Origin: Achromobacter pulmonis
Lineage (GTDB): Bacteria > Pseudomonadota > Gammaproteobacteria > Burkholderiales > Burkholderiaceae_B
Assembly (NCBI RefSeq): GCF_002885955.2
Contig: NZ_POQS01000001.1
Location: forward strand, 270,595 to 334,594
DNA length: 64,000 nucleotides
Direction: 5' to 3'
The position numbers were made by a program, and so were the translations under genes. Shown piece after piece: positions 46,022 through 62,839 of the stretch (position 1 is the first letter of the stretch; each line of letters opens with the position of its first letter). The notes beneath the pieces were generated by a model that worked only from the letters and a program-made list of their open reading frames with translations, searched no databases and was not told where the DNA came from.

Positions 46022-47272
46022 TCAGGCGGCCGGGCGTCCGGGAGCCGGCGCGACGCGCATGACCGGCGCGGCGGTTTTGCCGGCGTCGGCGCGCGGCCGG
46101 ATCATCATGGGGAAGAAGCGCCACAGGTACAGCGCGAAGCCCAGCGCCCACGCCGTGGCCGAGGCGTGCAGCAGGCCCAGCGCGGCCGCGGTGGGCAGCA
46201 GGGCGGCCAGGCGCAGCAGCGCGGCCAGTATCACCAGCACGTAACTGGCGACCATGCTGCGGTCGGCGCGCAGCGGCCGGCCCAGGTGGCCCAGCGCGGT
46301 GCGCGTGGCCATGCCGATGATCAGCACCGAAAACCCGGCCACGCCGACCACGTGCGCGGGCCAGGCGGTGCGCAGCACGAAGCCGGCCAGTTGCGCCGCG
46401 CCGACCAGCAGGCCCACGCCCAGTCCGAAATAGCCCGCGTACAGAATCCACAGCAGCGGCACGCGGCGCGCGGCCCAGGGCTTCCAGGAGATCCATTGCA
46501 CCAGCGCGATCAGCCCGGTCGCGGCCAGCGCCACGGCCGCGATCTGCGGACGTCCGGCCAGCAGGCAGGCGATGGCGACCACGCCCGTGCCCAGCTGCCA
46601 GTGGCCGCTGCGGGTATGCGGTGGAATGTCCAGGCCGGCCACGGCGCGCTTGGCGAAAAAGGGCAGGATGCGGCGCGCGATCAGCAGGGTCAGCACGGCC
46701 ATGCAGAGCAGGCCGGCGTTGAAGTAGCGCATCAGCGCGAAGTAGTCGCCCTGGACCGTGGCCCACAGGTACAGCGCGTTGGTCAGGGCCAGCGCCACCA
46801 GCAGCAGCGGTATGCCGTAGTTGCGCCGGTTGCGCGTGATGGCCACGGCGCGTCCCAGCGCGGCCGCGCCCCACAGGAAGAACAGCAGATCGGCCAGCGC
46901 GGCGATGAGAAACGCGGGCCGGCCCGGCGCCAGGTAGCCCGCGCGCGCCACGATCCATAGCACGCACAGCGCCGCCAGGGCATTGCCGCGCAGCGGATTC
47001 CTGCCGGTCCAGTTGCCGCCGGCGGTCAGCAGAAAGCCCACGGCGATGGTGGCGACGAAGCCCCACAGCATTTCGTGCGCATGCCAGGGCATGCCGCCCA
47101 GCACGCCGTTGAGCAGGGACGGGGCATGCACCCACAGCAGCACCGAGGCCAGCGCCCAGAAGCAGCCCGCCAGATACAGCGGGCGGAAACCCATTTCGGT
47201 GAAGGCGCGCCATTGCGGGCGCGCGCGGCGCGAGTCCTGGTCGGGTTCGTCGATGGTCAGCAGCGTGCTCAT
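46022..47272 (-). CDS. nnrS: NnrS-family membrane haem/copper protein
   Basis: A 416-residue inner-membrane protein with about twelve helices, matching NnrS. The N-terminal FTEMGFRPLYLAGCFWALASVLLWV and the GMPWHAHEMLWGFVATIAVGFLLTA block (with the conserved His pair) are diagnostic, as are the later FFAKRAVAGLD and HVVGVAGFSVLIIGMATRTALGHLGRPL. NnrS protects cells from nitric oxide by preventing toxic dinitrosyl-iron accumulation, and its gene is induced by NO. A near-consensus NsrR box sits 18 bp upstream. It is divergent from narK1, placing nitrosative-stress defence beside nitrate respiration. Confidence 0.9.
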   Translation of the reverse strand: MSTLLTIDEPDQDSRRARPQWRAFTEMGFRPLYLAGCFWALASVLLWVHAPSLLNGVLGGMPWHAHEMLWGFVATIAVGFLLTAGGNWTGRNPLRGNALAALCVLWIVARAGYLAPGRPAFLIAALADLLFFLWGAAALGRAVAITRNRRNYGIPLLLVALALTNALYLWATVQGDYFALMRYFNAGLLCMAVLTLLIARRILPFFAKRAVAGLDIPPHTRSGHWQLGTGVVAIACLLAGRPQIAAVALAATGLIALVQWISWKPWAARRVPLLWILYAGYFGLGVGLLVGAAQLAGFVLRTAWPAHVVGVAGFSVLIIGMATRTALGHLGRPLRADRSMVASYVLVILAALLRLAALLPTAAALGLLHASATAWALGFALYLWRFFPMMIRPRADAGKTAAPVMRVAPAPGRPAA

Positions 47273-47289
47273 GGGGGCCTGCGTTTTTA

Positions 47290-47312
47290 AAGGTGTATTT
47301 CAAATGCATATT
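47290..47312. promoter_or_regulatory. NsrR box upstream of nnrS
   Basis: AAGGTGTATTT, a central C, then AAATGCATATT matches about 20 of 23 positions of the NsrR dyad (AAGATGCATTT-C-AAATGCATCTT). NsrR is a NO-sensing Fe-S repressor, so nnrS should be derepressed by NO. The regulator gene itself is not in this window. Confidence 0.75.
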
Positions 47313-47346: not shown

Positions 47347-47360
47347 TTGATCCAACGCAA
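47347..47360. promoter_or_regulatory. Weak FNR/Dnr-like site between nnrS and narK1
   Basis: TTGATCCAACGCAA keeps the TTGAT half and the terminal CAA of an FNR-family box but not the full second half. It is about 104 bp upstream of the inferred narK1 start, so it is more likely to serve nnrS, or to be chance. Confidence 0.35.
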
Positions 47361-47376: not shown

Positions 47377-47451
47377 GGGGTGACTAGTCACATCGACAGG
47401 CCGCTTCTGGTCGGCTGGCGAATGGTGCGCAAGGCGCGCCGTCCTTAGGCT
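47377..47451 (+). promoter_or_regulatory. narK1 promoter with TGACTAGTCA palindrome
   Basis: GGGGTGACTAGTCA (palindrome at 47381-47390), 30 bp, AATGGT (47421-47426), 19 bp, then TAGGCT (47446-47451) as a likely -10. The same three elements with identical spacing stand before narG. AATGGT is six-sevenths of a reversed NarL heptamer (AATGGTA). The inferred start near 47458 would place the palindrome at about -72. Confidence 0.6.
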
Positions 47452-47493
47452 TGGGGCAAGTCAGATTTCTTCGTGACCAAAGCGAGAATAACC

Positions 47494-48756
47494 ATGGCAG
47501 CAACCAGTCATTCCTCGGCCGGCGCGCCGATGCGGGTCCTGATATCCAGCACGTTCGCCTTCACCATCTGCTTCGCGGTGTGGATGATCTTCGCCGTACT
47601 GGGCATACCCATCAAGACGCAGCTCGGCCTGTCCGAAACCGAATTCGGCCTGCTGGCCGCCATGCCGGTGCTGACCGGTTCGCTGGTGCGGGTGCCGCTG
47701 GGCATCTGGACCGACCGCTACGGCGGCAGGCCGGTGTTCTTCGTCCTGATGCTGGTGGCCGTGGTGCCGATCTGGCTGCTGTCCTACGCGACGCAGTACT
47801 GGCAGTTCCTGGTGCTGGCGCTGTTCGTGGGCCTGACCGGCGGCTCGTTCTCGGTGGGCACGCCCTACGTGGCGCGCTGGTTTCCGCGCAACAAGCAGGG
47901 CCTGGCGATGGGCGTGTTCGGCGCCGGCAACTCCGGCTCGGCCATCACCAAGTTCGTGGCGCCCGCGCTGATCGCGGCCACCGCCGGATCGTGGATCATC
48001 GTGCCGCAGGTCTATGCGATCGCGCTGCTGGTGACGGCGGTGCTGTTCTGGCTGTTCTCGGCCTCGGACCCGTCGCACCGGGTGACCGGCGGGGCCAGCC
48101 TGTCGGCGCAGTTCGCCATGCTCAAGGATCCGCGCGTCTGGCGCTATTGCCAGTACTACTCGGTGGTGTTCGGCGGCTACGTGGCGCTGGCGCTGTGGAT
48201 GACCAAGTACTACATCGGCGAGTACGGCTTCGACATCAAGCTGGCGGCGCTGCTGGCGGCCTGCTTTTCGCTGCCCGGCGGCGTGCTGCGCGCGGTGGGC
48301 GGCTGGATCTCGGACCGCTACGGCGCCTACAAGACCACGTGGTGGGTCATGTGGGTGTGCTGGGTCGCCTTCTTCATCCTCAGCTATCCGCAAACGCACT
48401 TTACCGTGCTGACCACCGCGGGCGCGCGCAGTTTCGATATCGCGCTCGGACCGGTCGTATTCACCATTCTGCTGTTCGTGGTCGGCATCGCCATGGCGAT
48501 CGGCAAGGCCTCGGTGTTCAAGTTCATTTCGGACGAGTTCGGCGAGAACATCGGCGCGGTTTCGGGCATCGTCGGCCTGGCCGGCGGCCTCGGCGGATTC
48601 GTGCTGCCCATCCTGTTCGGCATCCTGCTCGACTACACGGGCGTGCGCTCCAGCGCCTTCATGCTGCTGTACGGCACGGTCTGCGTCTCTCTCATCTTCA
48701 TGCACTTCAGTTTCCGGCCGGAAAGCGCGGCGCTGGCCCGGCAACACGCCACCTGA
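47494..48756 (+). CDS. narK1: NarK1-type nitrate transporter (MFS)
   Basis: A 420-residue, twelve-helix major-facilitator protein of the NarK1 (nitrate/H+ symporter) group. Diagnostic segments are PLGIWTDRYGGRPVFFVLMLV between helices 2 and 3 and the nitrate-signature regions GLTGGSFSVGTPYVARWFP (TM5) and GIVGLAGGLGGFVLPILFG (TM11). The ATG at 47494 is chosen; a GTG at 47473 is also in frame. It heads a narK1-narK2-narGHJI locus as in Pseudomonas and other denitrifiers, where NarK1 starts nitrate import and NarK2 exchanges nitrate for nitrite. Confidence 0.9.
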   Translation: MAATSHSSAGAPMRVLISSTFAFTICFAVWMIFAVLGIPIKTQLGLSETEFGLLAAMPVLTGSLVRVPLGIWTDRYGGRPVFFVLMLVAVVPIWLLSYATQYWQFLVLALFVGLTGGSFSVGTPYVARWFPRNKQGLAMGVFGAGNSGSAITKFVAPALIAATAGSWIIVPQVYAIALLVTAVLFWLFSASDPSHRVTGGASLSAQFAMLKDPRVWRYCQYYSVVFGGYVALALWMTKYYIGEYGFDIKLAALLAACFSLPGGVLRAVGGWISDRYGAYKTTWWVMWVCWVAFFILSYPQTHFTVLTTAGARSFDIALGPVVFTILLFVVGIAMAIGKASVFKFISDEFGENIGAVSGIVGLAGGLGGFVLPILFGILLDYTGVRSSAFMLLYGTVCVSLIFMHFSFRPESAALARQHAT

Positions 48757-48783
48757 TCCAACCTCAATCTGGGAGCACCTATC

Positions 48784-50169
48784 ATGTCCACTCAAGTCCT
48801 GGCGCGCTGGGAGCCGGATAATCCCGGCTTCTGGAAACAGACGGGTTCGCGCGTCGCCAACCGCAATCTCTGGATCTCCATTCCCGCCCTGATGCTGGCG
48901 TTCTGCATCTGGATGCTGTGGAGCGTGGTCGTGGTCAACCTGGACCGCGCCGGCTTCATGCTGTCGAAGAACCAGATGTTCTGGCTGACGGCGCTGCCGG
49001 CGCTGTCGGGCGCCACGCTGCGCATCTTCTATTCGTTCCTGGTGCCGGTCTTCGGCGGGCGCAAGTGGACCGCCATTTCCACCGCCTCGCTGCTGATCCC
49101 GGCGCTGGGCATGGGCTTCGCGCTGCGCGATCCCACCACGACCTATCCGACCCTGCTGATCCTGGCGCTGCTGTGCGGCCTGGGCGGCGGCAATTTCAGC
49201 TCCAGCATGGCCAACATCAGCTTCTTCTTCCCCAAGGAAAAGAAGGGCCTGGCGACGGGGCTGAACGCCGGCATCGGCAACCTGGGCGTGTCGGTGGTGC
49301 AGTTCGTGGTGCCGCTGGTGATCTCCGCCAGCGTGTTCGGCGTGCTGGGCGGCGATCCCCAGACGGTGACCCGCGACGGCGCGCAGCACAGCCTGTGGCT
49401 GCAGAACGCCGGCTTCATCTGGGTGATTCCCATCGCGCTGGCCTCCATCGCCGCCTGGTTCGGCATGAATGACATCGCCGACGCGCGCGCTTCCTTCGCG
49501 GACCAGGCCGTCATCTTCAAGCGCAAGCACAACTGGCTGATGTGCTGGCTGTACGTGGGGACGTTCGGCTCCTTCATCGGTTTTTCGGCGGGCTTCGCCA
49601 TGCTGACCAAGACCCTGTTCCCGCAGGTCGATCCCACGGCCTACGCCTTCCTGGGCCCGCTGGTCGGCTCGCTGACCCGTCCGGTCGGCGGCTGGGTCTC
49701 GGACAAGCTGGGCGGCGCGCGCGTCACGCTGTTCACTTTCGCCGCCATGATCGCGGCGGTGCTGGGCGTGGTGGCCTACCTGCCGGGCGCCTCGGGCGCG
49801 GGCGACTTCAACGGCTTCCTGGCCATGTTCATCGTGCTGTTCGCGCTGACCGGCGTGGGCAACGGTTCCACGTTCCGCATGATCCCCGCGATTTTCCTGC
49901 GCGAGCGCATCCAGGCAGCCAAGGGCAAGGACGCGGCCGCGCAGAAGCAGGCGCTGGCCGACGCCGCCAAGGAATCGGCCGCGGTGCTGGGCTTCTCGGG
50001 CGCCATCGGCGCGTACGGCGGCTTCTTCATCCCGCGCAGCTTCGGCACCTCGCTGGAGATGACCGGCAGCGTGCAGGCCGCGCTGTACTGCTTCATTGCC
50101 TTCTACGCCACTTGCATGGCGATCACGTGGTGGTACTACGGCCGCCGCGGCGCGCCGGTGCCGTGCTGA
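48784..50169 (+). CDS. narK2: NarK2-type nitrate/nitrite antiporter (MFS)
   Basis: A 461-residue MFS carrier of the NarK2/NarU group. Nitrate signatures are GLGGGNFSSSMANISFFFPKEKKG (TM5) and LGFSGAIGAYGGFFIPRSFG (TM11). The long N-terminus before TM1 (residues 1-28, WEPDNPGFWKQTGSRVANRNL) and the cytoplasmic insert rich in Lys/Ala (RIQAAKGKDAAAQKQALADAA) are typical of the group. It exports nitrite in exchange for nitrate during respiration. It begins 27 bases after narK1 with GGGAGCA as ribosome site. A separate promoter follows it for narG, so the nar operon can be read independently. Confidence 0.92.
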   Translation: MSTQVLARWEPDNPGFWKQTGSRVANRNLWISIPALMLAFCIWMLWSVVVVNLDRAGFMLSKNQMFWLTALPALSGATLRIFYSFLVPVFGGRKWTAISTASLLIPALGMGFALRDPTTTYPTLLILALLCGLGGGNFSSSMANISFFFPKEKKGLATGLNAGIGNLGVSVVQFVVPLVISASVFGVLGGDPQTVTRDGAQHSLWLQNAGFIWVIPIALASIAAWFGMNDIADARASFADQAVIFKRKHNWLMCWLYVGTFGSFIGFSAGFAMLTKTLFPQVDPTAYAFLGPLVGSLTRPVGGWVSDKLGGARVTLFTFAAMIAAVLGVVAYLPGASGAGDFNGFLAMFIVLFALTGVGNGSTFRMIPAIFLRERIQAAKGKDAAAQKQALADAAKESAAVLGFSGAIGAYGGFFIPRSFGTSLEMTGSVQAALYCFIAFYATCMAITWWYYGRRGAPVPC

Positions 50170-50186
50170 CCGGCGGGCGCTTGGCC

Positions 50187-50261
50187 GGGGTGACTAGTCA
50201 TTCTGCCGCGCCCGGCCTATGCCACCGGGCAATGGTCCCGCAGACAGGCCAGGCCTAAAGT
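50187..50261 (+). promoter_or_regulatory. narG promoter with TGACTAGTCA palindrome
   Basis: GGGGTGACTAGTCA (palindrome at 50191-50200), 30 bp, AATGGT (50231-50236), 19 bp, TAAAGT (50256-50261). This reproduces the narK1 promoter layout base-for-base in spacing although the intervening sequence differs. No perfect FNR box was found at the expected -41.5 position. Confidence 0.6.
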
Positions 50262-50322: not shown

Positions 50323-53300
50323 ATGAGCCATTTTCTGGACCGCTTGAAGTTCATGTCCAGGGTGAAGTCCACCTTCGCGAACGGACACGGCGAGACGGTC
50401 AACGAAGACCGCAGCTGGGAGAACGCCTACCGCGCCCGCTGGCAGCACGACAAGGTGGTGCGCTCGACCCACGGCGTGAACTGCACGGGTTCGTGCTCGT
50501 GGAAGGTGTACGTCAAGAACGGCCTGATCACCTGGGAGACCCAGCAGACCGACTACCCGCGCACGCGGCCGGACCTGCCCAATCATGAACCGCGCGGCTG
50601 TCCGCGAGGGGCTTCCTACAGCTGGTACGTGTATTCGGCCCAGCGCGTGAAGTATCCGATGATCCGCGGACGCCTGATGGAAATGTGGCGCGAGGCCCGC
50701 AAGACCATGGACCCCATCGCCGCCTGGGAATGGATCAGCCAGGACCCGGCGCGCGCCAAGCGCTACAAGGCCGTGCGCGGCCTGGGCGGTTTCGTGCGCG
50801 CCGACTGGGACACCGCCACCGAAATCATCGCCGCGGCCAATGCGTACACGATCAAGAAGTTCGGCCCCGACCGCCTGATCGGCTTTTCGCCGATCCCGGC
50901 CATGTCCATGGTCAGCTACGCCGCCGGCGCGCGCTACCTGAGCCTGCTGGGCGGCGCCTGCCTGAGCTTCTACGACTGGTACTGCGACCTGCCGCCGGCC
51001 AGCCCGCAGGTCTGGGGCGAGCAGACCGACGTGCCGGAATCGGCCGACTGGTACAACTCGACCTATCTGATGGTGTGGGGCTCCAACGTGCCCCAGACCC
51101 GCACGCCCGACGCCCACTTCTATACCGAGGTCCGCTACAAGGGCACCAAGACCGTGGCCGTGTCCAGCGACTACGGCGAAATGGTGAAGTTCGGCGACAT
51201 CTGGCTGGCCCCCAAGCAGGGCACCGACGCGGCGCTGGCCATGGCCATGGGCCATGTGATCCTGAAGGAATTCCACCTGTCCGGCGCCTCGGCCTATTTC
51301 CGCGACTACGTGAGCCGCTACACCGACATGCCCATGCTGGTGCAGTTGAAGGAGCGCGACGGCTGCTACGTGCCCGACCACTTCCTGCGCGCTTCGCACC
51401 TGGACGGCGCGCTGGGCGAGCAGAACAATCCCGACTGGAAGACGCTGGTCCTGGACGCCAAGAGCGGCGACCTGGTCGCGCCCAACGGCAGCATCGGCTT
51501 TCGCTGGGGCGAGGGCGCCGTCAACGGCGGCGAGAAGGTCGGACGCTGGAACCTGGAATCCAGGGACGGCGGCAGCGGCCGCGAGATCGAGCCCACGCTG
51601 ACGCTGCTGGGCCAGTCCGACGCCGTGGTCGGCGTGGGCTTTGCCTACTTCGGCGGCGAGCATGGCGATCTGCAGGTGCGCAACGTGCCGGCGCGCCGCA
51701 TCCGCCTGGCCGACGGCGGCGAGGCCCTGGTGGCCACGGTGTACGACCTGCAGATGGCCAACTACGGCCTGGACCGCGGCCTGGGTGGCGGCAACGTCGC
51801 CGGCAGCTATGACGACGACGTGCCCTACACGCCGGCCTGGCAGGAAAAGCACACCGGCGTGCCGCGCGCGCAGGTGATCCAGGTGGCGCGCGAGTTCGCC
51901 CAGAACGCGCACGACACCGAGGGCAAGTCCATGGTCATCGTCGGCGCCGGCCTGAACCACTGGTACCACATGGACATGATCTACCGCGGCATCATCAACA
52001 TGCTGATGATGTGCGGCTGTGTGGGCAAGAGCGGCGGCGGCTGGGCTCACTACGTGGGCCAGGAAAAGCTGCGTCCGCAGTTCGGCTGGGCCCCGCTGGC
52101 CTTCGCCGCCGACTGGGTGCGCCCGCCGCGCCAGATGAACGGCACCTCGTTCTTCTACGCCCACACCAGCCAGTGGCGCCATGAAAAGCTGGACGTCACC
52201 GAAGTGCTCGGCCCCACCGCCGACCGCGCCAAGTACGCCGACCTCAGCATGATCGACCTGAACGCCCGCGCCGAGCGCATGGGCTGGCTGCCGTCGGCGC
52301 CGCAGCTGCGCACCAATCCGCTGGACGTGGTGGCCGAGGCCGACGCGGCCGGCAAGGACCCGGTTGTCCACGCCGCCGAAAAGCTCAAGTCCGGCGAACT
52401 GCGCATGGCCTGCGAGAACCCGGACGACCCGGCCAACTTCCCGCGCAACATGTTCGTGTGGCGCTCCAACATCCTGGGCTCCAGCGGCAAGGGCCACGAG
52501 TACTTCCTGAAGTACCTGCTGGGCACGCAGAACGCGGTGTTCGGCGACGAGGCCCAGGCCATCCGGCCGTCCGAAGTCACCTACCAGGAAGACGCGGCCC
52601 AGGGCAAGCTCGACCTGCTGACGGTGCTGGACTTCCGCATGAGCACGACCTGCCTGTACGGCGACATCGTGCTGCCCACGGCCACCTGGTACGAAAAGGA
52701 CGACCTCAACACCTCGGACATGCACCCGTTCATCCACCCGCTGAGCGAAGCCGTGCAGCCGTTGTGGGAAAGCAAGACCGACTGGGAGATCTACAAGCTG
52801 CTGGCCAAGCGCTTCAGCGAGATCGGCGGCCCCTACCTGGGCAAGCGCCGCGACCTGGTGCTGACCCCGCTGATGCACGACACGCCGGGAGAACTCGGCC
52901 AGGCCTTCGAGCCCAAGGACTGGAAGCTGGGCGAGTGCGACCTGGTGCCGGGCAAGACCGCGCCGACCATGACGGTGGTCGAGCGCGACTACAACGACAT
53001 CTACCGCAAGTTCACCTCGGTCGGCCCCTTGCTGGACAAGCTGGGCAACGGCGGCAAGGGCATCAGCTGGAACACCGAGCACGAAGTGCGCGAGCTGGCC
53101 AACCTGAACGAGGCCGTGGCCGAAGCCGGCGTGAGCCAGGGCCGTCCGCGCCTGGACACCGCCATCGACGCCGCCGAGATGATCCTGACCTTCGCGCCCG
53201 AGACCAACGGCCACGTGTCGGTCAAGGCCTGGGAGGCGCTGGGCAAGATCACCGGCCGCGACCATACCCACCTGGCGCTGGGCCGCGAACACGACAAGAT

Positions 53301-54066
53301 CCGCTTCCGCGACATCGTGGCGCAACCGCGCAAGATCATCTCGGCCCCGACCTGGTCGGGCCTGGAAAGCGAGGAAGTCAGCTACAACGCCGGCTACACC
53401 AACGTGCACGAGCTGATTCCGTGGCGCACGCTGACCGGCCGCCAGCAGTTCTACCAGGACCACCGCTGGATGCTGGACTTCGGCGAAGGCTTCTGCGTGT
53501 ACAAGCCGGCCATCGACACCAAGACGGTGGCGCCCATGCTGGGCCGCTACCCGAACGGCGAGAAGGAACTCGTGCTGAACTGGATCACGCCGCACCAGAA
53601 GTGGGGCATCCACAGCACGTACTCCGACAACCTGCGCATGCTCACGCTCAGCCGCGGCGGCCCCCACGTCTGGGTGTCGGAAACCGAGGCCCGGCAGGCC
53701 GGGCTGGTCGACAACGACTGGGTCGAGGTGTTCAACGTGAACGGCACGCTGACCGCCCGCGTGGTGGTCAGCCAGCGCGTGCCGGTGGGCATGTGCCTGA
53801 TGTACCACGCGCAGGAAAAGATCGTGAACGTGCCCGGCGCCGAAACCAGCGGCAAGCGCGGCGGCATCCACAACTCGGTCACGCGCACGGTGCTCAAGCC
53901 CACCCACATGATCGGCGGCTACGCCCAGCAGGCCTATGGCTTCAATTACTACGGCACGGTGGGCGCCAACCGCGACGAGTTCGTGGTGCTGCGCAAGATG
54001 AAAAAGGTGGACTGGCTGGAAGGCCCGCTCGTCGAAGAATCGCAAGAGGAAGAGAAGCAATCATGA
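50323..54066 (+). CDS. narG: Respiratory nitrate reductase alpha subunit
   Basis: A 1247-residue cytoplasmic-facing catalytic subunit that reduces nitrate to nitrite at a Mo-bis(pyranopterin guanine dinucleotide) centre. The N-terminal FS0 [4Fe-4S] motif has His plus three Cys (STHGVNCTGSCSWKVYV, then HEPRGCPRGASYSW). The region of the molybdenum aspartate ligand is FYDWYCDLPPASPQVWGEQ, followed by WGSNVPQTRTPDAHFY. The length matches the E. coli enzyme (1247). GGAGAATAGAGA precedes the ATG. The stop overlaps narH (ATGA). Confidence 0.97.
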   Translation: MSHFLDRLKFMSRVKSTFANGHGETVNEDRSWENAYRARWQHDKVVRSTHGVNCTGSCSWKVYVKNGLITWETQQTDYPRTRPDLPNHEPRGCPRGASYSWYVYSAQRVKYPMIRGRLMEMWREARKTMDPIAAWEWISQDPARAKRYKAVRGLGGFVRADWDTATEIIAAANAYTIKKFGPDRLIGFSPIPAMSMVSYAAGARYLSLLGGACLSFYDWYCDLPPASPQVWGEQTDVPESADWYNSTYLMVWGSNVPQTRTPDAHFYTEVRYKGTKTVAVSSDYGEMVKFGDIWLAPKQGTDAALAMAMGHVILKEFHLSGASAYFRDYVSRYTDMPMLVQLKERDGCYVPDHFLRASHLDGALGEQNNPDWKTLVLDAKSGDLVAPNGSIGFRWGEGAVNGGEKVGRWNLESRDGGSGREIEPTLTLLGQSDAVVGVGFAYFGGEHGDLQVRNVPARRIRLADGGEALVATVYDLQMANYGLDRGLGGGNVAGSYDDDVPYTPAWQEKHTGVPRAQVIQVAREFAQNAHDTEGKSMVIVGAGLNHWYHMDMIYRGIINMLMMCGCVGKSGGGWAHYVGQEKLRPQFGWAPLAFAADWVRPPRQMNGTSFFYAHTSQWRHEKLDVTEVLGPTADRAKYADLSMIDLNARAERMGWLPSAPQLRTNPLDVVAEADAAGKDPVVHAAEKLKSGELRMACENPDDPANFPRNMFVWRSNILGSSGKGHEYFLKYLLGTQNAVFGDEAQAIRPSEVTYQEDAAQGKLDLLTVLDFRMSTTCLYGDIVLPTATWYEKDDLNTSDMHPFIHPLSEAVQPLWESKTDWEIYKLLAKRFSEIGGPYLGKRRDLVLTPLMHDTPGELGQAFEPKDWKLGECDLVPGKTAPTMTVVERDYNDIYRKFTSVGPLLDKLGNGGKGISWNTEHEVRELANLNEAVAEAGVSQGRPRLDTAIDAAEMILTFAPETNGHVSVKAWEALGKITGRDHTHLALGREHDKIRFRDIVAQPRKIISAPTWSGLESEEVSYNAGYTNVHELIPWRTLTGRQQFYQDHRWMLDFGEGFCVYKPAIDTKTVAPMLGRYPNGEKELVLNWITPHQKWGIHSTYSDNLRMLTLSRGGPHVWVSETEARQAGLVDNDWVEVFNVNGTLTARVVVSQRVPVGMCLMYHAQEKIVNVPGAETSGKRGGIHNSVTRTVLKPTHMIGGYAQQAYGFNYYGTVGANRDEFVVLRKMKKVDWLEGPLVEESQEEEKQS

Positions 54067-59453: not shown

Positions 59454-59947
59454 GCCCAGTTTTCGCTATCGCCGGCCGGTCCGGCAGCGGCAAGACCACC
59501 CTGATAGAGGCCATGCTGCCGGTGCTGGCCGCGCGCGGCCTCAAGGTCAACGTGGTCAAGCACAGCCACCACGATTTCCAGATGGAGCCGCCGGCCAAGG
59601 ACAGCGCGCGCTTTCGCGCGGCGGGCGCCCAGGAGGTGATGATCGCCTCGCCGTTTCGCTTCGCCATCGTCCACGAACTGCGCGGCGCGCCCGAACCCAC
59701 GCTGGACGAGCAGCTGGCGCGCCTGTCGCCGGCCGACCTGGTGCTGGTCGAAGGCTTCAAGCGCGCCGAGGTGCCGCGGCTGGAAGTCTACCGGCCGGCC
59801 GTGGGCAAGCCGCCGCTGCATGCCGAAGACCCCGGTTTCCTGGCGGTGGCGACCGACGTGCCGCTCGATATCGCACTGCCGTGTCTTCCGCTGGGCCAGC
59901 CGGCCGAGGTCGCGGCCTTCATCTGCCGCGCCCTGGGGCTGACGTGA
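59450..59947 (+). CDS. mobB: Molybdopterin-guanine dinucleotide biosynthesis adapter protein
   Basis: A 165-residue P-loop GTPase. Walker A is [35 protein letters not shown] and [20 protein letters not shown] are MobB hallmarks. MobB assists MobA in attaching GMP to molybdopterin, the cofactor form used by NarG. GGAG precedes the ATG at 59450, within the carbonic anhydrase end; an upstream ATG at 59426 is in frame but lacks that ribosome site. Confidence 0.93.
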
Positions 59948-60042
59948 ACGTCCGGGCCGCCGCGCGGCCGGGGCCGGCGGGCGCGTCGGGCTACACTGAT
60001 GGCCGTTATACCGCTCCACGGGCGCAGACCGCTCCCAACCCC

Positions 60043-61977
60043 ATGAATCCGCCAGCTCCTGCCGACTCCGACAGCCTGCCATCGCCCCGGCACCGGCTGT
60101 CCACGCGCATCGTCGCCAGTTCCCTGGTGGCCCTGGTGGTGGTGCTGGCCATGGTCAGCTGGACGCTGTGGGTCTCCTGGCAGCTGGAAGGCGCCGGCGC
60201 GGCCATCAACGACACCGGCAGCCTGCGCATGCGGGCCAACCGCGTGGCGGTGGAGCTGATGCGGCCGCAGGCCGGGCGCGAGTTCCGCACGCGCGAGCAG
60301 ATCGACGTCATGGACGACACCATCGCGCGCCTGGAGCGCGGCAATCCGGCCCGTCCGCTGTTCCTGCCCAACGACGAGGCCATCCGGCTCCAGTGGCGGG
60401 AAGTGGCCAGCTACTGGAACGACATCATGAAACCGGTGGCCCTGCGCGCCCTGGGGCAGCCCAGCGCCGCGGCCTACCTGGAAACGCTGCCGGAGTTCGT
60501 CGAGCGCGCCGATTCGCTGGTGCGCATGATCGAGCAGGACAACGCCGGCAAGACCGCTTCGCTGCGCCTGTCGCAGGGCGTGCTGGCCGCCATCGCCAGC
60601 GCCGGCACCCTGGCCATGATCTACCTGCTGTATCTGTGGATCATCTCGCCGGTGCTGCGCCTGCGCGACGGCCTGCAGCGCATGGCCGCGCGCGAATTCA
60701 GCACCCGGCTGCCGGTGGAAAGCCAGGACGAGTTCGGCGTGCTGGCGCGCGGCTACAACCGCATGGCCGACGAATTGCAGGATCTCTACACCGGCCTGGA
60801 ACGGCGCGTGGAGGAAAAAACCGCCCAGCTGGCCGCGCAGAACCGCGACATCGGCGCGCTCTACGACATGGCGGCCTTCCTGAACCAGCCCAACGAGATC
60901 GAGGCGCTGTGCGACGGCTTCCTGCGCCGCGTGATGCTGCAGTTCGACGCCGAAGGCGGCAGCATCCGCGCGCTCGACCCGGCCACCGACAAGCTGAACC
61001 TGATGGTCTCGGTCGGCCTGTCCGACGCGCTGGTCGAGTCCGAGCATTGCATGAACGTGGACGACTGCTATTGCGGCACGGCCACGCGCCAAAAGAGCGT
61101 CATCGTCATCCAGGACCTGAGCAAGGCGGCGCTGGCCAGCAGCCTGAGCTGCCGGCGCGAAGGCTACGCCAGCGTGGCGGTGTTCCGCATCGTCACGCGC
61201 GACGAGGTGCTGGGTTCGTACTCGCTGCATTTCCGCCGGGAGCGCCAGCTCACGCCGGGGGAATCGCAGATGCTGGAAACGCTGGGACGGCACCTGGGCG
61301 TGGCGCTGGACAACCGGCGCCTGGGCGCGCAGGCGCGCCAGCTGGCCGTGGTGCAGGAGCGCGGGCTGGTGGCCCAGGGGCTGCACGACAGCCTGGCCCA
61401 GGGCCTGAATTTCCTGAATCTGCAGCTGCAGATGCTGGACGCGGCGGTCAAGCGCGGCGACGCCGACGAAATCGAGGAAATCCTGCCGCTGCTGCGCGCC
61501 GGCGTGGACGAAAGCTACCAGGACGTGCGCGAGCTGCTGACCAACTTCCGCAGCAAGCTGGCCCAGGGCGACCTGCAGGCCGCCATCGAGGACACGGTGG
61601 AGCGCTTCCGCCGCCAGACCGGCATCGCCACCGAGCTGCGCTTCGGCCAGGGGCAGGGCGCGCCGCTGCCGCCGGAGCAGCAGCTGCAGGTGCTGTTCAT
61701 CCTGCAGGAAGCCCTGTCCAACGTGCGCAAGCATTCCGAGGCCGACCGCGTCGAAGTCGCCGTCGACAACGGCCGCGATTTCAGCCTGCTGGTGGCCGAC
61801 AACGGCCAGGGGTTCGACCCCGCCGAGGTGGCCGAGCGCGGCGAATCGCATGTCGGACTGCACATCATGCGCGAGCGCGCCGCCCGCATGCGCGCCATGA
61901 TAAAACTCGAATCGCAGCCCGGCGCCGGCACGCGCGTGCGGCTGAACCTGCCGGGCAGCGAACGCCAGGCCGCTTGA
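60043..61977 (+). CDS. narX: Nitrate/nitrite sensor histidine kinase
   Basis: A 644-residue NarX-type kinase. TM1 is at residues about 22-44. The periplasmic nitrate-binding P-box is INDTGSLRMRANRVAVEL near 62-79. TM2 is near 180-205 and is followed by a HAMP domain (SPVLRLRDGLQRMAAREF). A central GAF-like module has a cysteine cluster (HCMNVDDCYCGTA, then LSC). The HisKA_3 phospho-histidine is in VAQGLHDSLAQGLNFLNLQLQML, and the ATPase domain has DNGQGFDP. It phosphorylates NarL on sensing nitrate. It lies 95 bases after mobB and 13 before narL. Confidence 0.95.
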   Translation: MNPPAPADSDSLPSPRHRLSTRIVASSLVALVVVLAMVSWTLWVSWQLEGAGAAINDTGSLRMRANRVAVELMRPQAGREFRTREQIDVMDDTIARLERGNPARPLFLPNDEAIRLQWREVASYWNDIMKPVALRALGQPSAAAYLETLPEFVERADSLVRMIEQDNAGKTASLRLSQGVLAAIASAGTLAMIYLLYLWIISPVLRLRDGLQRMAAREFSTRLPVESQDEFGVLARGYNRMADELQDLYTGLERRVEEKTAQLAAQNRDIGALYDMAAFLNQPNEIEALCDGFLRRVMLQFDAEGGSIRALDPATDKLNLMVSVGLSDALVESEHCMNVDDCYCGTATRQKSVIVIQDLSKAALASSLSCRREGYASVAVFRIVTRDEVLGSYSLHFRRERQLTPGESQMLETLGRHLGVALDNRRLGAQARQLAVVQERGLVAQGLHDSLAQGLNFLNLQLQMLDAAVKRGDADEIEEILPLLRAGVDESYQDVRELLTNFRSKLAQGDLQAAIEDTVERFRRQTGIATELRFGQGQGAPLPPEQQLQVLFILQEALSNVRKHSEADRVEVAVDNGRDFSLLVADNGQGFDPAEVAERGESHVGLHIMRERAARMRAMIKLESQPGAGTRVRLNLPGSERQAA

Positions 61978-61990
61978 TATTTTCCAGACC

Positions 61991-62662
61991 ATGCCTATCC
62001 GTATCCTCCTCGTCGACGACCACACCCTGTTCCGTTCGGGCGTGCGCCTGCTGCTGCAGCGCCAGCCGGACTTCGAGGTCGTGGCCGAGGCCGGCGACGG
62101 GGTCGAAGGCCTAAAGCGCGCCAAGGAGCTCAAGCCCGACGTGGTGCTGCTCGACCTCAACCTGCCCGGGCTGTCCGGGCTGGAAACCCTGCAGCTGCTG
62201 ACGCAGGACCTGCCGTCCTGCGCCGTCATCATCCTGACCGTTTCCGAAGAGGCCGACGAGCTGGGCCAGGCGCTGCGCGACGGCGCGCGCGGCTACCTGG
62301 TCAAGAACATTGACGCCGACGCGCTGACCGCCGCCATCCGCCGCGCCGCCGGCGGCGAGCCGGTGATCGCCGACAGCATGACCGCCAAGCTGGTCGAGCA
62401 GTTCCGCGGCCAGGCCGGCCAGGGCGGGGCGGGCGCGCAGGCCGCGGGCAGCGGCGACCGCCACCGCCTGACCGCGCGCGAACGGCAGATCGTGCAGTGG
62501 CTGGCGCGCGGCGCCAGCAACAAGGTCATCGCGCGCGAACTCGACGTGAGCGAAAGCACGGTCAAGATCCATGTGCAGAACGTGCTGAAGAAGCTCAATC
62601 TCACCAGCCGGGTGCAGGTGGCGGTGTACGCGGTGGAGCATGGGTTGTATGTGGAGGAATAG
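61991..62662 (+). CDS. narL: Nitrate/nitrite response regulator
   Basis: A 223-residue NarL-family regulator. The receiver domain has LLVDDHTLFRSGVR, the phospho-acceptor aspartate in VVLLDLNLPGLSG and the lysine in GYLVKNID. A LuxR-type helix-turn-helix lies near 160-200 (LTARERQIVQWLARGASNKVIARELDVSESTVKIHVQNVLKKLNL). As partner of NarX it should activate narK1, narK2 and narG; both promoters carry AATGGT, a near match to a NarL heptamer. A REP-like pair follows its stop. Confidence 0.94.
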   Translation: MPIRILLVDDHTLFRSGVRLLLQRQPDFEVVAEAGDGVEGLKRAKELKPDVVLLDLNLPGLSGLETLQLLTQDLPSCAVIILTVSEEADELGQALRDGARGYLVKNIDADALTAAIRRAAGGEPVIADSMTAKLVEQFRGQAGQGGAGAQAAGSGDRHRLTARERQIVQWLARGASNKVIARELDVSESTVKIHVQNVLKKLNLTSRVQVAVYAVEHGLYVEE

Positions 62663-62839
62663 GGCGGCTGGCGCCGCCTGATGGGTTTCGCGCGTTCGAT
62701 GGCCGGGTTCTTGCGCGGAATCTCTCGCGCTGCACCCATCCTACGATGACGCATCCGTAGGATGGGTGCAGCGCGAGCGTCCTCAACCAAGAACACCTAT
62801 ATCAAGCGCGCGAAACCCATCGGGCGGCGCCAGCCGCCA
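62663..62839. repeat. REP/BIME-like inverted pair (copy 5) with terminal hairpins
   Basis: Core 62680-62821: GATGGGTTTCGCGCG to CGCGCGAAACCCATC, with inner CGCGCTGCACCCATCC and GGATGGGTGCAGCGCG. GGCGGCTGGCGCCGCC (62663-62678) and GGCGGCGCCAGCCGCC (62824-62839) close it as matching hairpins. It begins immediately after the narL stop and separates the nar genes from ubiU. Confidence 0.88.

Follow-up and report, generated by a model that had tools for sequence, protein, structure and literature searches.

An altered NarL half-site may explain the palindrome shared by the narK1 and narG promoters of Achromobacter pulmonis

The narK1 and narG promoters in a 64,000-nucleotide stretch of the Achromobacter pulmonis genome (hereafter the window; order Burkholderiales, assembly GCF_002885955.2, contig NZ_POQS01000001.1, positions 270,595 to 334,594, forward strand) share a rare palindrome about 72 bp upstream of their predicted transcription starts. 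Our preferred interpretation, to which we give a probability of roughly 0.78, is that both promoters are nitrate-activated through NarX–NarL, whose genes sit in the same cluster as narK1 and narG, and that the beta-proteobacterial NarL reads at the palindrome a half-site that differs from the one known in Escherichia coli. Judged from sequence, the two promoters resemble the NarL-activated type yet fail the E. coli site definition. Unless stated relative to AAT, all negative positions given below are reckoned from the predicted -10 hexamer and the start predicted from it.

Results

Both promoters are built alike. The 14-mer GGGGTGACTAGTCA (47377–47390 before narK1 and 50187–50200 before narG, both on the plus strand) is followed after exactly 30 bp by AATGGT (47421–47426 and 50231–50236) and 19 bp further on by a -10-like hexamer, TAGGCT or TAAAGT (Table 1), while the bases in between differ. 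An earlier note on this DNA had described this identical layout, and its coordinates and spacings are exact in the sequence. The palindrome before narK1 is centred at about -72.5. AATGGT occupies about -37 to -32, and its last four bases open a predicted -35 hexamer, TGGTGC or TGGTCC, with a 17-bp spacer. The conserved stretch around it is longer, GGNGAATRG, the narG version in the window being GGGCAATGG. The idea that AATGGT is a reversed NarL heptamer, also put forward in the earlier note, had to be abandoned because the hexamer is made up of the -35 region and the end of this separate, nar-specific element, which matches neither the E. coli heptamer nor the variant described below.

Within the window, the exact 14-mer occurs only as the nar pair. 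A genome scan, which the earlier note had proposed, found TGACTAGTCA confined to the narK1 and narG promoters among 6,940,984 bases, with one place for the reversed control pattern. Rarity by itself says little, since 5 of 100 shuffles reached the window's count of two 10-mer matches at one mismatch or fewer; the weight lies in place, spacing and conservation. At up to three mismatches the pattern GGGTGACTAGTCAC gave 73 matches in the genome against 199 for its reversed control, and at up to two mismatches only two further places besides the nar sites and their opposite-strand readings; no palindrome sites beyond narK1 and narG are claimed for this genome.

The 14-mer was present in 23 of 101 genomes searched, all among the 43 members of the genus (A. 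pulmonis included); the 58 genomes from other genera lacked it. It has 33 places, 30 of which were fetched, and 29 of these stand 94–136 bp before narK1 or narG. One copy (L012:1501–1514) lies away from nar genes, between ORFs (open reading frames) that by eye look transporter-like and efflux-type. For alignment, the best 80 of 310 relatives' narK1 loci were combined with the window, which gave 81 narK1 and 72 narG upstream regions, 153 in all. Whether the palindrome stays aligned in close relatives was a point raised in the earlier note, and its CTAG does so to within 1 bp in all 47 Achromobacter upstreams: CTAG precedes AAT by 37 bp in 20 of 24 narK1 and 23 of 23 narG regions, and by 36 bp in the remaining four. 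In the whole set, 122 of 153 upstreams contain a core made up of AAT, 22 bases and TANNNT, and once near-duplicates were removed CTAG lay 36–38 bp before AAT in 53 of 75. The aligned upstreams show RACTAGTCMC together with a tendency to TGC near -27 relative to AAT.

The link to NarL comes from the same relatives. Convergent TAGT...ACTA pairs peak at a spacing of 8 bp, found in 29 of the 153 beta-proteobacterial upstreams against 0.2 expected from shuffles; the next-best spacings are 17 bp (six) and 16 bp (four). TAGT-N8-ACTA is the geometry of NarL 7-2-7 sites, with TAGTYC replacing TACYNM. In 36 beta-proteobacterial genomes the full dyad CTAGTYC-N4-GRACTAG has 12 sites in 11 genomes (reversed pattern, seven), and all 12 lie 89–160 bp before narG (nine), narK1 (two) or napF (one), NapF and NapA having been assigned by family models. 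At the napF locus (L201, napA following) the dyad is accompanied by a perfect FNR box lying in between. Among 399 genomes of the order there are 16 sites in 15 genomes; 15 were fetched, and nitrate-respiration genes stand downstream of nine (narG five, narK1 two, narK2-type one, narX-type one). In the last case (L230:1501–1518) the dyad lies directly before the narX-type gene, which suggests narXL autoregulation.

The E. coli-type pattern TACYNMT-NN-AKNRGTA, by comparison, has no perfect match in the 153 upstreams and six at one mismatch (1.0 in shuffles), two of the six being hybrids with a beta half-site; the E. coli 7-2-7 consensus was rejected as a description of these promoters. The earlier note did not recognise the palindrome as a site for NarL, a remark that holds only for the E. 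coli consensus. Of the two alternatives offered there, an unusual NarL arrangement is favoured, and a dedicated regulator is unnecessary for the palindrome because the same half-sites are found in relatives, arranged as 7-2-7 pairs upstream of nar and nap genes. The window site is probably best seen as two half-sites sharing CTAG, because the outer flanks of 7-2-7 sites are less often palindromic than the single -72 site: RA precedes CTAG in 19 of 27 non-Achromobacter -72 sites vs 9 of 44 such flanks (Fisher P 4.6e-5, to be taken as a guide, the sequences being related). No description of the variant half-site was found in the literature, mostly its open-access part, on NarL (comparative genomics, structure, residues, Achromobacter, beta-proteobacteria) or on the EpsA motif, and for TGACTAGTCA titles and the beginnings of abstracts revealed no paper on nitrate regulation.

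Base contacts of E. coli NarL are made by Lys188, Val189 and Lys192. A NarL relative is present in 36 of 36 beta genomes at 59–93% identity (matched as two pieces in G123 and G129), and the next-best relative listed after it reaches 51%, except in G133, which has an additional copy that is split in two. The recognition helix reads TVKIH[VI]Q in all 30 beta NarL read, with Gln at the Lys192 position, where proteins from other orders of the class have Lys in 36 and Arg in two of 38 helices (from 40 regions). The sites differ along the same line. TACY-N8-RGTA is present in 12 of 38 upstreams from other orders (one inside a coding end) and in 3 of 153 of the beta set, whereas TAGT-N8-ACTA is present in 1 of 38 vs 29 of 153; the 38 comparison upstreams come from the 14 of 40 regions that hold nar genes. 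Asn after Gln was rejected as a diagnostic residue, since it is found in 13 of 38 comparison proteins. The LuxR-type regulator EpsA shares K and Q with beta NarL at the corresponding helix positions, and is a second case of the helix–site correspondence. In another family of the order, CTAGTYC-N4-GRACTAG has an EpsA-type gene on one side and a PEP-CTERM-type ORF on the other (L226–L228; the EpsA-type call at L227 was made by helix alone).

The second conserved element lies near -42. Relative to AAT, the aligned upstreams have C at -9 (93%) and G at -4 (99%), -3 (80%) and -1 (89%). The pattern CYNNNCNNNYGGNGAATRG plus a -10 gave 14 hits in the 36 beta genomes, nine before narK1 and five before narG, against one for the reversed control; being strict and built from such promoters, it speaks for specificity only. 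In the A. pulmonis genome CYNNNCNNNYGGNGAATRG at up to one mismatch marks the two nar promoters and one other place. Palindrome, core and -10 combined gave 14 hits in 11 of the 399 genomes (narK1 11, narG three; reversed, none). The absence of a perfect FNR box from both promoters, observed in the earlier note, extends to all 153 upstreams: TTGATNNNNATCAA, the box expected near -41.5 in FNR/Anr class II promoters, has no perfect match, three matches at one mismatch and 40 at two (10 in shuffles), 20 of these 40 being an Achromobacter box of the TTGA...CGCAA type upstream of the palindrome. Perfect FNR boxes number 11 elsewhere in this genome. The FNR consensus was rejected as a description of these promoters; GGNGAATRG contains no FNR half-site and fits the NarL heptamer poorly, and a dedicated factor for it is possible. 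A dyad C-Y-N-T-N-C...G-A-A-T-R-G at -42 is not claimed, positions -13 and +3 being without covariation (among 75 upstreams T-A 12, C-G 17, T-G 31, C-A 5, others 10).

An explanation compatible with NarL at the palindrome would let the oxygen signal enter at -42 through RegA/RoxR or an atypical FNR-family protein; we regard it as conceivable but rather unlikely. It would fit the lack of perfect FNR boxes in the 153 upstreams, whereas the nap promoter at L201, which has the NarL dyad, has one, and it would fit a report that in one beta-proteobacterium RegAB is the master redox regulator, ranking above both NarXL and FNR (PMC8191878). However, a global regulator would be expected at many genes, and in the 36 genomes the element plus -10 stands, by the strict promoter-derived pattern, only before nar genes; the element also contains no FNR half-site.

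Alternatively, the palindrome and GGNGAATRG might both be bound by a different regulator devoted to nar, such as a LysR-type protein occupying sites near -65 and -42, with NarL not directly involved. The -42 element is indeed as nar-specific as the palindrome, all 14 hits in the 36 genomes preceding narK1 or narG, and of 17 promoters lacking the -72 CTAG, 10 still carry TG at -27/-26 from AAT, a constant position between the two elements (5 of the 17 carry TGC). Nevertheless, this proposal appears improbable: the half-site recurs in exact NarL 7-2-7 geometry, it also stands before nap and narX-type genes when searched with a pattern that excludes the -42 element, the -42 element is without dyad covariation, and the ORFs of at least 120 aa between narK1 and narX include, by eye, no further regulator gene. 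Chance, or recent duplication of one promoter, might be suggested by the 2.8 kb between the copies and by the unexceptional rarity of the 10-mer, but can be practically dismissed: in-between bases differ in the window and in aligned relatives while elements and spacing stay, and conservation in relatives already refutes it.

Discussion

Sequences, spacing, conservation, association with genes and the helix–site correspondence are observed. We infer that NarL binds the palindrome and activates through that binding, and likewise how it occupies the fused half-sites. The NarX–NarL pair of the cluster would bring about nitrate activation of the narK1 and narG promoters, the beta-proteobacterial NarL reading CTAGTYC/GRACTAG in place of the E. 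coli TACYNMT. In many relatives two such half-sites would form a 7-2-7 dimer site, while here they would be fused back to back, as GTGACTAGTCAC / GTGACTAGTCAT, some 72 bp upstream. With a NarL dimer on the right half-site the centre would fall near -65.5, and with one on the left near -79.5. Phosphorylated NarL at the palindrome would bring polymerase to what is a weak promoter (-35 TGGTNC, -10 TAGGCT/TAAAGT). At about -42, where other nitrate promoters hold an FNR box, GGNGAATRG would probably serve a second activator or a second NarL unit. Some precedent is reported: E. coli NarL can activate derivatives of ogt that carry one site only, at -67.5 or, weakly, at -77.5 (PMC7419079), it binds heptamers in varied numbers and arrangements (PMC7380067), and the E. 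coli narG promoter is without 7-2-7 sites (PMC4549865).

Several points weigh against NarL as the reader of the palindrome. As to the site itself, the half-sites in the window overlap rather than form a 7-2-7 pair, unlike the TAGT-N8-ACTA relatives, and two NarL domains on half-sites sharing CTAG may clash. The palindrome centre, at about -72.5, lies half a helical turn from both -67.5 and -77.5, and most other site positions tested in E. coli ogt gave poorly active promoters (PMC7419079). Another factor may touch the stretch around the TG at -27/-26 from AAT. The dyad is not exclusive to NarL either: of the 15 fetched, the remaining six comprise three beside EpsA/PEP-CTERM genes, one beside CRP/FNR-type and cytochrome-d1 genes and two unexplained, and in the 399 genomes the reversed control gave about 70 hits vs 16, though as it holds GATC and not the rarer CTAG it calibrates chance poorly. 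The unexplained dyads are those at L222 and L231, the latter with a PEP-CTERM gene 554 bp off; at L224:1501–1518 the dyad has a CRP/FNR-type regulator gene on one side and a cytochrome-d1 gene on the other.

Other points concern the comparisons. The 153 upstreams are mutually related, so that counts from them are not independent; the 40 comparison regions were picked for their resemblance to E. coli NarL, a choice that favours Lys192; and setting beta-proteobacteria against the other orders of the class amounts in essence to a single evolutionary comparison. The window NarL itself scores 219.5 bits against NCBIfam NF007935, below the cut-off of 250, yet this is the best of the 79 models matched.

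The resemblance to E. coli NarL/NarP 7-2-7 sites lies in the relatives' 16-bp inverted repeat, with 8 bp between outer tetramers, placed before nitrate genes, and in the encoding of NarXL within the cluster here; the differences are CTAGTYC vs TACYNMT, the fused half-sites in the window and Gln vs Lys192. With E. coli ogt and yeaR, where NarL alone is sufficient, these promoters share the lack of an FNR box and the presence of sites near -35 and further upstream. In ogt the NarL sites are at -44.5 and -77.5 (PMC7419079). Unlike in ogt and yeaR, the element at about -42 fits neither NarL half-site well, and the palindrome is centred at about -72.5.

The E. coli nirB and nrfA promoters have FNR at -41.5 and NarL near -70 to -75. 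The NarL-type site studied here lies at about the same upstream distance, with GGNGAATRG in place of their FNR box. EpsA of PEP-CTERM systems (TIGR03020) is alike in having CTAGTYC-N4-GRACTAG beside its gene and K and Q at the same helix positions, but there the dyad adjoins PEP-CTERM rather than nitrate genes. It is tempting to speculate, if only tentatively, that at the nar promoters of beta-proteobacteria FNR gave way to an as yet undescribed nar-dedicated activator reading GGNGAATRG at about -42, that NarL there uses a new geometry with two half-sites sharing CTAG, and that Lys192 to Gln is the specificity switch from TAC to TAG, reached separately by EpsA.

Predictions of nitrate regulons commonly use the NarL and FNR consensus sequences of E. 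coli, neither of which matches any of these 153 promoters perfectly. A signature usable across a large group of denitrifiers may come from the variant half-site together with the nar-specific element. The helix–site correspondence would offer a one-residue test of a change in DNA alphabet among LuxR-type regulators.

Genes and other features of the cluster

Table 1. Genes and predicted promoter elements of the nar cluster in the window
Feature	Coordinates	Strand	Remarks
narK1, NarK-type nitrate/nitrite transporter	47494..48756	+	TIGR00886, 211.9 bits, below cut-off 311.7
narK2, NarK-type nitrate/nitrite transporter	48784..50169	+	TIGR00886, 348.5 bits, above cut-off
narG, respiratory nitrate reductase alpha subunit	50323..54066	+	TIGR01580, 2138 bits (cut-off 1084)
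narX-type nitrate sensor histidine kinase	59881..61977	+	Best models NarQ 257 and NarX 228 bits, both below cut-off; start codon uncertain
narL response regulator	61991..62662	+	Recognition helix ESTVKIHVQN; Gln at E. coli NarL Lys192 position
narK1 upstream site GGGGTGACTAGTCACATC	47377..47394	+	Overlapping back-to-back NarL-type half-sites GTGACTA / TAGTCAC sharing CTAG; putative NarL assignment
narG upstream site GGGGTGACTAGTCATTCT	50187..50204	+	Same kind as narK1 upstream site
nar-specific element of narK1 CTGGTCGGCTGGCGAATGG	47407..47425	+	Centre about -42, overlaps -35
nar-specific element of narG CTATGCCACCGGGCAATGG	50217..50235	+	About -42; one mismatch to pattern
narK1 -35 TGGTGC	47423..47428	+	Predicted, 17-bp spacer
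narK1 -10 TAGGCT	47446..47451	+	Predicted
narG -35 TGGTCC	50233..50238	+	Predicted, 17-bp spacer
narG -10 TAAAGT	50256..50261	+	Predicted

Three loci in the relatives' set (L081, L083 and L092) come from metagenome bins labelled Bordetella parapertussis; their narK1 is only 78–80% identical to the query, and the labels look doubtful. The stretch 46022–47312 holds nnrS (minus strand), divergent from narK1, and an NsrR-type 11-1-11 dyad at 47290–47312; 24 of the 153 narK1/narG upstreams match the NsrR consensus within three mismatches. Between the NsrR-type site and the palindrome, TTGATCCAACGCAA at 47347–47360 forms an FNR/Dnr-like box with a poor right half, and a box of this kind is the best FNR-like match in 20 of 24 Achromobacter narK1 upstreams. 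An inverted repeat with arms of the GGGTTTCGCGCG type occupies 62680–62830, between narL and the next gene.

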